DNA from: Nocardioides kongjuensis
Lineage (GTDB): Bacteria > Actinomycetota > Actinomycetes > Propionibacteriales > Nocardioidaceae
Length of the DNA stretch: 64,000 nucleotides
NCBI RefSeq assembly: GCF_013409625.1
Contig: NZ_JACCBF010000001.1
Location: 2,793,001-2,857,000, forward strand
Reading direction: 5' to 3'
This document shows positions 41,545-44,591 of this stretch, piece by piece. A model generated the notes under the pieces. It had not been told where the DNA came from and searched no databases. It saw only the letters and a list, made by a program, of their open reading frames with translations. The stretch's first letter is position 1. Each line of letters starts with the position of its first letter. The translations under genes were made by a program, and so were the position numbers.

Positions 41545-42846
41545 CTACTCGTCCGGCGGGCTGGGGTCGCCGGTGTCGTGCACGGGGTGGGTGCCGCGGT
41601 GGTCGACCCGGAACCGGAACCCGTTGGGACTGGTCCACACGTAGGACCCGGGCATCGGGGACTCGTACCGCCAGGTCGAGTGGGTCTTGGCGCGGTGGTG
41701 CCGTCGGCAGAGTGGGACGAGGTTGCAGGGACAGGTCGGTCCGCCCCGGTCGTGAGGCTTTGCATGGTCGATGTCGCACCGGGTCGCGGGGCGGGTGCAG
41801 TGGGGGAAGCGGCAGGTGTGGTCGCGCAACGCGACCCGGGTCTTGTGGCGGTCGGGGATCTCGTAGGCCGTGACGGGGAGATGGTCGGCGAGGTCGATCA
41901 CCGGGCGCACGATGATCGTGGTGCTCTTCGAACGCAGCCATTCGCGGATCTGGGCGGTGGTGACGGGGCTGCGGCCTTCCTCCCACCGCCCGACCGGGTT
42001 CCGGCCAGCAAGGGTGGTGTCGGTGACGTGCACGTTGAGGACGACCTTGCGGCCGGGGACGGTCGCGACGACCTCCCCGGTGGCGGGGTCCGGGACCAAC
42101 AGGTCCAGGGCCAGGTCCTGGCGGGCGAGCTCGGCAGCGGCCTTGGAGCGGCGCACGTCGAGTGACGAGTCGTCCCCGAGCCGACCGAGAACCTCGGCTC
42201 TGCGTGCGACGGCTTGGTCGAGGTCGTGCCCGTCGGCGGCATCCATCAGCCCGTCGAGGTGCACGAGCCCGTGCTCGTCGACGTCACCGATGTCGAAGTG
42301 CCGGTGGTCGGCAGCCTTGGCCCGGTCGGTCTCGGCATTGTCGGGGTCGAACCGCAACATCGCCTCCGCGACGAGGCGTTCGAGCTGGGCCCACCCGATG
42401 CCGGAGGCGTTCCACAGCTGCCGGTCCACGAACCCCGCCGCCTCAGCCGACAGGCCACGGGTGAGGTCCGCGATCCGCTCAGCACGCCACGGAGCCAACC
42501 GCCCCGCCACCACGGCGTCGTAGACGTTCGGCAATCGCCACGCGCACTCGATCACCCGCCCGACGTAGGCCTTGCCACCGTCAGGGGTGCGGCCGAGGAC
42601 CGCGACGAGCTCCATCAACGCGAACTCGCTGACCAGCGGGGCACCCGCCCCGGCGATCGGGACACCGGTGTCGAGGTAGCCCTCGGTGATCGTCGCCGCA
42701 CCCTCGGGCCCGGTCACGATGTGGTCGCTCGCCCACTCCACGATCGCCGCCCATTCCTCGACGAGGAGCTGGTTGCGGACCTGGATCCCGGCGCTCAACC
42801 GTGACAGCACCGGGGCTGTCGAACGGGGCCTGGTTCCGAGATCCAT
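41545..42846 (-). CDS. DUF222 / HNH endonuclease-domain protein (13E12-like)
   Basis: A 433-residue protein of the actinobacterial DUF222-HNH group. The long helical N-terminal DUF222 region (LVEEWAAIVEWASDHIVTGP, ARRAEVLGRLGDDSSLDVRR, ALDLLVPDPATGEVVATVPG) is followed near 350-385 by an HNH nuclease motif with CRFPHCTRP, CDIDHAKPHDRGG, CNLVPLCRRHHRAKTH, containing the Cys pairs that bind zinc and the catalytic His. ATG 42846; GGGAG lies upstream. Members are multicopy and of unknown function, possibly mobile-element related. The IS110 element starts just upstream of its promoter region. Confidence 0.92.
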   Translation of the reverse strand: MDLGTRPRSTAPVLSRLSAGIQVRNQLLVEEWAAIVEWASDHIVTGPEGAATITEGYLDTGVPIAGAGAPLVSEFALMELVAVLGRTPDGGKAYVGRVIECAWRLPNVYDAVVAGRLAPWRAERIADLTRGLSAEAAGFVDRQLWNASGIGWAQLERLVAEAMLRFDPDNAETDRAKAADHRHFDIGDVDEHGLVHLDGLMDAADGHDLDQAVARRAEVLGRLGDDSSLDVRRSKAAAELARQDLALDLLVPDPATGEVVATVPGRKVVLNVHVTDTTLAGRNPVGRWEEGRSPVTTAQIREWLRSKSTTIIVRPVIDLADHLPVTAYEIPDRHKTRVALRDHTCRFPHCTRPATRCDIDHAKPHDRGGPTCPCNLVPLCRRHHRAKTHSTWRYESPMPGSYVWTSPNGFRFRVDHRGTHPVHDTGDPSPPDE

Positions 42847-42899
42847 GACAGGATTCTCCCACCCACCCCCGACATTGATGCTGGTCTTCGCTGCTCCCT

Positions 42900-43117
42900 G
42901 TGGAGTAGTGAAGAGGTCCCGATCGTCGTGCCTCAGCCTCCGACTGTCGCCCTGCTGGGTTGACCATCTTGTGGTCCGGCCGGCGGTCGGGACCCCGCGC
43001 GCCGGCCGGGCGGACATGACCTAATAAGAGCCTGGCAAGCGCCTCATCAATGTCCTGTCTGCTCGCCCGACCGGCGTCGACCATCCACATCGGTACGACA
43101 CGGAAGGCAGCTCCATC
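42900..43117 (+). ncRNA. Candidate IS110 bridge RNA region
   Basis: Noncoding 5-prime flank of the transposase, the place where IS110-group elements encode the bridge RNA. It holds the strong bulged hairpin at 42974-43015, with GTCC/GGAC and GGCCGGCG/CGCCGGCC arms, and further weaker pairings such as GTCG with CGAC around 43076-43098. Bridge RNAs carry two guide-bearing internal loops, one binding the target and one the donor. I could not match guide loops to flanking DNA by eye, so RNA boundaries are approximate and the call rests on family knowledge plus position. Confidence 0.45.
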
Positions 43118-44326
43118 ATGACAGCGACACGACCAGTGACCCCTGCCGTCTTCGCGGGCGCTGACACCCACGCCGACACGATCCACGTGGCCGCGATCGA
43201 CGGCTACGGTCGCGATCTCGGCGACGGCGAGTTCCCCACGACGCCGGCGGGCTACCGCGACGCCTTGGCCTTCCTCGCGTCGTTCGGTTCGGTACAGGTC
43301 TTCGGGATCGAAGGCACCAGCTCCTACGGAGCAGGGCTGGCCGTTGTGGCCCGCACGGCCGGGATCGCGGTGCGGGAGGTGATCCGTCCCGAAGCCACGG
43401 TGCGGCGGATGCAGGGCAAGTCCGACCTGATCGACGCTTACCAGGCGGCCCGTGCCGCCATGACCGGTCGCGCGAAGACCGCGCCGAAGGCCGAGGACGT
43501 CGAGGGACTTCGAGCGCTTCTCAGCACGCGACGTTCAGCCGCCAAGGCACGTACTGCGGCGATGAACCAGATTCACGCACAGTTGATCACCGCGCCCGTC
43601 GAGATCCGTGAGAGGTACCGGAAGCTGAGCGACAAGCGGTTGATCGACGCGCTCGCTGCCTGCCGCCCCGGCTCCCGCGGTGGAGTGGTGGCCACCGTGC
43701 TGCTCGGGTTGAAGATGCTGGCCCAGCGCCACCGGTTCCTCGGCCAGCAGATCGAGCTGCTCGACGACCAGCTCCGCGGCCTGGTCGCGGCGATCAACCT
43801 GAACCTGATCTCGGCACGCGGCATCGGACCGGTGACCGCTGCGCAGCTGCTCCTCACCGCGGGCGGCAACCCCGAGCGCCTGGCCAGCGAGACATCCTTC
43901 GCTGCCCTGTGCGGCACCGCACCGGTCCCGGCATCGTCGGGCAAGACCACCCGATACCGGCTCTCTCGTGGCGGGGATCGTCACGCCAACTCCGCGCTGC
44001 ACACGATCGCGACCGTGCGGATGGCCAGCGACCCCCGCACCCGCGAGTTCGTCGCCACCCAGCGCGCCAAGAACCGCAGCAACCCCGAGATCCTGCGAAT
44101 CCTCAAACGCGCCATCGCCCGCGAGGTGTTCAAGCTGCTCCAGAACCCGAACGCGCTTACCGGAATCGCCGACCTACGACGCATCCGACGCGAGAAGAAC
44201 CTGCCTATCCGAGTCGTGGTCGAACAGCTCGGCACCACCCTGAACCATGTCAGCCGCATCGAACGCGGAGTCGCGTTCGACCGCGAGTTCACCCAGCGCT
44301 ACCGAACCTGGCTCCAAGCCGCTTGA
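43118..44326 (+). CDS. IS110 family transposase (bridge-RNA-guided recombinase)
   Basis: A 402-residue IS110 transposase. The N-terminal RuvC-like DEDD domain has Asp16 (GADTHAD), Glu65 (FGIEGTSSYG), Asp103 and Asp106 (GKSDLIDAYQAAR). The C-terminal Tnp domain carries the catalytic Ser at 273-274 in PVPASSGKTTRYRLSRGG. The protein looks complete: IS110 transposases are about 350-420 residues. The reaction cuts and rejoins via a Ser covalent intermediate directed by a bridge RNA. ATG 43118 and all key residues are intact, so the element is potentially active. Confidence 0.95.
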   Translation: MTATRPVTPAVFAGADTHADTIHVAAIDGYGRDLGDGEFPTTPAGYRDALAFLASFGSVQVFGIEGTSSYGAGLAVVARTAGIAVREVIRPEATVRRMQGKSDLIDAYQAARAAMTGRAKTAPKAEDVEGLRALLSTRRSAAKARTAAMNQIHAQLITAPVEIRERYRKLSDKRLIDALAACRPGSRGGVVATVLLGLKMLAQRHRFLGQQIELLDDQLRGLVAAINLNLISARGIGPVTAAQLLLTAGGNPERLASETSFAALCGTAPVPASSGKTTRYRLSRGGDRHANSALHTIATVRMASDPRTREFVATQRAKNRSNPEILRILKRAIAREVFKLLQNPNALTGIADLRRIRREKNLPIRVVVEQLGTTLNHVSRIERGVAFDREFTQRYRTWLQAA

Positions 44327-44419
44327 CAACCATAGGAGCATCACAATCCAGCGCCGGAAACCCGCCTGGGGACAGGGGAAACTCCATTCGGAGGGTGTGG
44401 AGAACCGACGTCACCGACC

Positions 44420-44433
44420 GTCACGAAAGTGAC
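44420..44433. repeat. Perfect hairpin with GAAA tetraloop
   Basis: GTCAC (44420-44424) and GTGAC (44429-44433) flank GAAA, a GNRA-type tetraloop. It lies in the noncoding stretch 44327-44604 between the transposase and the next gene. Otherwise that stretch shows no coding signal and only the TACGGT box near its right end. The hairpin might belong to the right end of the element, be a terminator, or be chance. Confidence 0.4.
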
Positions 44434-44591
44434 CCCGGGACCGCAGCCCAACCGCGGAACCCAGCCACCTCCCCACCCTTCTCGTCACTGCCCTTTCGGA
44501 ACCCGACCGGCTCCGCCACCGAAGGCCCGAGCACAGCCCCCAGCAGCACCGCCGAGGCCCGCGTGCGGCCTCCGGACAACGGGCGCTCCGC

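Follow-up and report, generated by a model that had tools for sequence, protein, structure and literature searches.

The window, a stretch of 64,000 nucleotides from Nocardioides kongjuensis, carries an intact-looking IS110-group element beside a DUF222 gene on the opposite strand. Its features, in window coordinates, are the following.

41545–42846, minus strand: DUF222 gene (Pfam DUF222); the listed open reading frame, 41545–43017, starts inside the element
42844–42874, minus strand: host promoter-like region kept beside the element (TGTCGG 42869–42874, GAGAAT 42853–42858, ATG 42844–42846)
42873–42874, plus strand: CA core dinucleotide on the left side (its right-hand copy at 44342–44343)
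42875–44343, plus strand: IS110 element, 1469 bp, counted so as to include the right CA core but not the left one
42875–43117, plus strand: noncoding left end with the predicted bridge RNA (fold and covariation)
42885–42914, plus strand: 5′ hairpin with a 13-bp stem, predicted by folding, a lineage-specific extra
42916–42993, plus strand: predicted target-binding loop (stem 42916–42932 with 42978–42993; tip hairpin 42946–42952 with 42957–42964)
42936–42944, plus strand: left target guide (LTG), GCCUCCGAC, placed by guide–target fit; the next base, U, mismatches the second core base
42968–42973, plus strand: right target guide (RTG), CUUG then UG, the UG pairing with the CA core
43008–43064, plus strand: predicted donor-binding loop (stem 43008–43020 with 43052–43064)
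43024–43031, plus strand: tentative left donor guide (LDG), AUAAGAGC, against ATAGGAGC at the right end, 7 of 8 letters
43045–43052, plus strand: right donor guide (RDG), CAUCAAUG, complement of CA plus TTGATG at the left end
43118–44326, plus strand: IS110 DEDD recombinase, 402 aa, with a predicted C-terminal helix-turn-helix (HTH) at residues about 345–402
44327–44343, plus strand: right end; TTGACA (44323–44328) overlaps the stop codon

Comparison of copies, which the first-pass annotation had named as the way to place both ends, did place them. Five occupied sites in this genome (G000) read CCGA[CA]TTGATGC...GGAGCAT[CA], whereas nine empty paralogous sites, found by searching the genome with each flank and with left flanks homologous to the DUF222 gene of the window, read CCGA[CA]; CA is the sole dinucleotide common to both junctions and the empty site. 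The outer left boundary thus falls at 42874/42875 and not inside 42960–43100, where it would have made the hairpin host DNA. The element looks intact, as described earlier: the reading frame and both ends are intact in all five genome copies, which share a length of 1469 bp, an identical ORF and protein, and the same orientation relative to their DUF222 genes. The noncoding left end measures 243 nt and the right end 17 nt, an asymmetry that marks the IS110 group as opposed to IS1111. Long subterminal inverted repeats are not a feature of the IS110 group. Beside the core of the window element lies a 7-bp match, TGATGCT/AGCATCA, which shrinks to about 5 bp where the left end is TTGATGATG; the subterminal inverted repeats of IS1111 are described as 7–17 bp long (PMC11208160).

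The ORF at 43118–44326 matches Pfam DEDD_Tnp_IS110 and Transposase_20, as well as the NCBIfam model ‘IS110 family RNA-guided transposase’ (173.7 bits against a cut-off of 140). The annotation had credited it with all the IS110 catalytic residues, and D16, E65, D103, D106, S273 and S274 are indeed invariant in all nine aligned sequences (the window and eight relatives). The best fold matches of its AlphaFold model (pLDDT 78.8) are IS621 and ISCro4, with residues about 345–402 forming an added small helical domain.

Upstream of this gene, a noncoding flank of roughly 220 nt with strong secondary structure had been reported at 42890–43117. The noncoding left end stands, but it extends over 42875–43117 (243 nt), and while the strength of its fold is confirmed (minimum free energy −117.9 kcal/mol, z −4.7, with 0 of 200 shuffles folding as well), the strong 5′ hairpin turns out to be a lineage extra and not part of the conserved core, as it is present in 2 of 20 aligned left ends (the window and L038), also in L216, and is confined to these among those examined. 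RNAalifold on the 20 left ends gives 41 pairs, 18 of them with changes on both sides, and 96.7% of cells pair across these 20 distinct sequences. Double-change cells number 99, compared with 30.8 in shuffles (0 of 500 reach 99) and 14–21 with partners slid. Most of the covariation falls in the target-loop stem, where 12 of 16 pairs have changed on both sides, in the tip hairpin, which is paired in 99.3% of cells, and in a short 3′ helix. With 99.1% of its cells paired and zero double changes, the stem of the donor loop is nearly invariant and for that reason escapes this kind of test. Rfam has no family at gathering score within the window, and the four hits in 42700–44500 are at chance level, with E up to 5. 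Taken together with the guide fits described below, 42875–43117 very probably encodes the guide (bridge) RNA of the element, as the annotation had proposed for a candidate locus with target and donor loops; the transcribed part probably runs from about 42889 to 43080–43105.

The guides of this copy can be read, and they fit the empty target sites as well as the element’s own ends, the match that had been suggested as a check. The relatives come from two sources, a set of 215 congeneric genomes, 22 of which gave a match, and a scan of genome contigs, which yielded 28 loci. The LTG ends in GAC directly before the tip hairpin, and the RTG stands directly before UG. Counting wobble, the LTG agrees with the left target at positions −8 to −3 in 27–33 of 33 sites and at −9 in 9 of 33, while the RTG agrees with the right target at +1 to +4 in 21, 21, 16 and 11 of 28 sites, falling to 2 and 2 at +5 and +6. 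The mean LTG fit is 5.76 of 7, against 4.34 on re-pairing (33 sites, 21 guides), and the mean RTG fit 2.90 of 4, against 1.62 (28 sites, 12 guides); in each case 0 of 20000 re-pairings did as well, although the guide rows are related by descent and the permutations ignore kinship. The RTG fit is partial (11–21 of 28 per position) and absent in L088 (0 of 4). These counts leave out L075 (the same locus as L045) and L084, L086 and L093, whose left ends were not placed; L085 lacks a left flank, the RTG test omits rows lacking a right end, and two entries, L038 for its guides and L042 for its right target, were assigned manually from the printed sequence.

On the donor side, 34 rows, five own copies and one duplicate among them, were compared; in 30 the RDG is exactly complementary to CA and the six bases that open the left end, and this holds over four left-end variants, TTGATG, CTGATG, GTAATG and GTGATG. 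The match is broken in L072, L078, L080 and L090. The LDG stays tentative, being inaccessible to covariation because the donor hardly varies. Another candidate for the RTG, GCUGGGUUG (about 42956–42964), was rejected: it fits 8 of 9 letters in four own copies and 0 to 6 of 9 elsewhere, is near-constant in relatives and forms the covarying tip hairpin.

Of 25 sites that a covariance model retrieved later, 22 have the best-fitting of 80 positions in the LTG slot, the exceptions being L210, L216 (a tie) and L220. Among these sites are some with markedly different targets, for example CTGTCTTAC in L201 and TCTCGAAAC in L224, so the same slot appears to read other targets in other subclades. The set omits duplicates (L179, L180, L182, L183, L209, L211–L215, L217 and L218), L238, which is not a left end, and rows with an unplaced left-end start or a short contig (L190–L192, L194, L196, L198, L199, L202, L203, L205, L208, L221, L222, L225–L231, L233 and L234). 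In the wider group, L223, L224 and L232 have an LTG and a target that share TCACGAGAC, TCTCGAAAC and TATCGAGAC, a different target class.

What the guides of the window’s own subclade read has a recognisable layout. On the other strand, all 28 sites begin with TGTC and 25 with TGTCRG; a hexamer nAnnnT follows exactly 10 nt past the box in 18 of 28 (at most 2 of 28 at other offsets from 8 to 39; the strict form TANNNT at 10 nt in only 3), and 16 carry ATG or GTG at offset 28 or 29. The window copy leaves the run from box through spacer and hexamer to ATG unbroken. The layout was first noticed by eye on these 28 sites, among which one element accounts for five in Janibacter and the L044/L059 element for two; L002–L005 are folded into L001, L075 is left out, and so are L042 and L085, whose flanks are too short. 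Among the later sites, the hexamer is found in 9 of 11 of the close group and 3 of 14 of the wider group (Fisher p 0.0048), the 119-bit split into groups A and B having been made after the flanks were seen.

The first lead for the motif was tTGTCRGTGN8TAnnnT. The published motif of PafBC is TGTCGG-N10-TANNNT, with TGTCAG also allowed (PMC8151990). The site layout resembles that of PafBC (DNA-damage) promoters, which may thus be PafBC-dependent here as well; the WYL-domain genes of the genome include two tandem pairs that could be pafB-pafC.

The genes behind the sites partly suit such a regulon. DUF222/HNH genes lie behind six of them (L001, a paralogue with a weak HNH match besides DUF222; L041, below cut-off; L045; L184; L210; L216), and repair-type genes behind three, LigA (L070), an Lhr-type helicase (L071) and RmuC (L090). 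In M. tuberculosis, the 13E12 genes are damage-induced. Together the DUF222/HNH, ligA, lhr-type and rmuC genes make up 9 of the 21 scanned, four short or cut ORFs (L073, L079, L082, L092) being left aside, while 12 of 21 have no repair link or no Pfam match: TnpB-like (L076), glyoxalase-like (L087), DksA/TraR-type (L088), Hypoth_Ymh (L059), SUKH-1 (L189) and a thioesterase (L236), and six in which the Pfam scan found no match (L066, L040, L043, L089, L186, L207).

The ends, the core, the two-loop structure, the fit of guides to target and donor and the promoter-like layout are thus all read from sequence comparison. On this basis we consider it probable that 42875–43117 forms the bridge-RNA end of an IS110-group element that looks intact and whose subclade has its guide set to the −35-like box of PafBC-like promoters; the guides of the element and its close relatives appear to place copies just before promoters that look like those of the DNA-damage response.

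The LTG alone was rejected as a predictor of insertion: G000 holds 35 perfect LTG 10-mers, and at the 30 loci read (32 rows, with repeats where two sites are close together) an xAA right target occurs in none and the hexamer in 2 of 32 rows, whereas the five insertions of this genome sit where both guides fit. One of the perfect LTG sites, L095 (G000:C1:501214), is empty and lies, with hexamer-like spacing and an ATG, ahead of a gene of the holA type (DNA polymerase III delta); on its right side the target is not matched. Ten empty sites in G000 fit both guides (TTNTGTCGGNGG), six of them DUF222 promoters and nine with an ATG at 28 or 29. Three of the ten match sites that are filled elsewhere: L140 corresponds to L087 (proteins 74% identical), L141 to L089 (80%), and L148 to L066, a site filled in Pimelobacter simplex 3E and empty here, where the 31 letters from box to ATG are identical and the right side agrees in its first six letters only (CAAACC).

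An ordinary bridge RNA could leave the same picture if in-gene insertions at guide-fitting sites were lost and the promoter layout merely marked the survivors. The start-codon layout is missing at the L072, L078 and L080 sites, as such sorting would allow, and genome G560 shows no clear excess of the hexamer at insertions (2 of 3) over background guide sites (9 of 30, with 30 of 60 read and one being an occupied site). In Janibacter, by contrast, hexamer and start codon accompany 4 of 5 insertions and only 2 of 30 background guide sites (30 of 97 read; p 0.0014), a difference that could itself be due to survival. Since 9 of the 10 genome sites that fit both guides are gene starts already, guide specificity would suffice, and we regard survival as a somewhat unlikely explanation of the layout.

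A second alternative is that the element is a relic, no longer self-mobile and spread by recombination or gene conversion among DUF222 repeats. At least 14 DUF222 gene starts with a conserved upstream region are present in the genome (L001–L005, L025–L027, L031–L036), five of them occupied, and they fall into two right-hand types, CAAYCCAGCGCCGGA-like and GAAGCGAACGTTCAG. Two observations would suit a relic: L003 and L004 stay identical for 468 bp before the ORF and 123 bp after it, which amounts to about 225 and 106 bp of flank beyond the element, and may represent one event, a duplication and not two insertions; and L001 occupies the other right-target type. Occupancy by type in G000 (CAAYCC, 4 occupied and 2 empty; GAAGCG, 1 occupied and 7 empty) was not used as a test because L003 and L004 may be one event. 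Set against a relic are the intact frame and ends of every copy, the differing flanks of the other copies and the presence of relatives at unrelated genes in other genomes, which make it quite improbable. If the structured region acted as a leader or attenuator for the recombinase gene and held no guide RNA, a strong fold directly upstream of that gene would be accounted for, but not loop letters that change together with target and donor letters; this alternative is most improbable.

We return to the reading of a guide set to a promoter box, and to the extra domain of the recombinase. The Pfam HTH_31/HTH_3 match of the window protein is below cut-off (22.3 against 27 bits), and 6 of 120 listed homologues carry PF13560. 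Structural matches of the C-terminal domain are XRE-like with a middling score and include the XRE protein ClgR, which reportedly recognises the same P1 motif (PMC5656591). A profile of residues about 345–402 matches the untruncated close-group recombinases and L048, a broken close relative, but none of 12 sister IS110s (L046, L047, L049–L058) and none of 27 wider recombinases, several of which are partial. The modelled domain is a putative Cro/CI-like HTH, absent from the sister IS110s examined. Among the 14 sites of the wider group, the hexamer is found at 0 of 9 with a recombinase and at 3 of 5 without a recovered one (L189, L207, L220). The link between HTH and promoter targeting is an association only, because one clade amounts to one event. 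The bolder proposal, that this clade fused a Cro/CI-type domain to an RNA-guided recombinase so that guide RNA and HTH jointly read DNA-damage promoters, seems to us unlikely; were it true, movement would be tied to the PafBC response and the element could spread along a host regulon without breaking it.

The closest relative among characterised systems is IS621 (PMC11208160; PDB 8WT6/8WT9), which is described as having a DEDD/Ser recombinase that is also the best fold match, a long left end with target and donor loops, the same LTG, RTG and RDG geometry and a short core. As described there, it differs in its core (CT, here CA), its LTG (here without the second core base), its 5′ stem-loop (missing in 18 of 20 aligned left ends here), its lack of the extra C-terminal HTH and its target, a REP in place of a promoter box. 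The ISCro4 recombinase (PDB 9T56) matches in sequence over profile positions 193–335 and in fold; the C-terminal HTH has no match there, in a comparison that covered the protein. In the seekRNA system of ISEc21/IS110 types, a noncoding end upstream of tnp yields an RNA complementary to both target strands, and the circle junction creates a promoter, much as proposed here, although the targets reported are others and the RNA, predicted here, is experimentally shown there (PMC11187229). IS900 of M. avium subsp. paratuberculosis (PMC8141618) is likewise an actinobacterial member of the IS110 family that inserts near gene starts, with motif CATGNNNNNNTCTCCTT; compared by description and not by sequence, its target is at the translation start, unlike the −35-like box here. 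TIGR-Tas is a distant fold match (E 4e-4) but a nuclease with a tandem guide array instead of a recombinase; a weak NCBIfam match of our protein to the TIGR-Tas endonuclease (24.7 bits, cut-off 100) agrees with the TasR fold match.

As far as it can be judged from sequence, the bridge RNA is real and of the kind known for IS110, and what is unusual is the class of targets and the extension of the protein. The first-pass annotation had noted neither these two features, the latter being the HTH on the recombinase, nor the CA core. A literature search returned no paper joining IS110 with PafBC, and the titles and abstract openings on IS110 with helix-turn-helix, DUF222/13E12 insertion, bridge RNA or the PafBC regulon contained nothing on such an element. 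The literature covered, with ISfinder and most subscription journals outside its scope, did not show a variant with this target class, CA core and HTH.

By analogy with work on IS621 and seekRNA, we propose the following mechanism. The element would circularise, joining TTGACA (44323–44328) to GATGCT (42877–42882) to form a promoter from which bridge RNA and recombinase would be transcribed. In all 28 elements for which both ends are available, among them five own copies, the joined ends would carry the pattern TTGACN-N17/18-nAnnnT, a count made without a shuffled control; such conservation is expected if the circle junction drives the bridge RNA. The donor loop would then pair with the joined ends and the target loop with CCNCCGA-CA-NAA, and the recombinase would exchange strands at CA. 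With a target guide that reads the −35-like TGTCRG box, copies would land directly upstream and leave box, −10-like hexamer and start codon in place, presumably sparing host expression.

For study, the element provides a naturally occurring bridge-RNA system in which the core is CA, the guides can be read, and occupied as well as empty sites are numerous. Since its targets, promoter boxes in front of DUF222/HNH genes and of some repair genes, resemble a functional class, host consequences are predictable and testable; should the HTH take part in targeting, a recombinase would here combine guidance by RNA with readout by protein in nature. L084 (Arthrobacter sp. efr-133-TYG-118) is a more distant relative with a different left end and target (GCGGAAACGG..), and L189 and L207 are left ends at promoter-like sites with no recombinase gene recovered nearby, possibly solo ends or non-autonomous elements.
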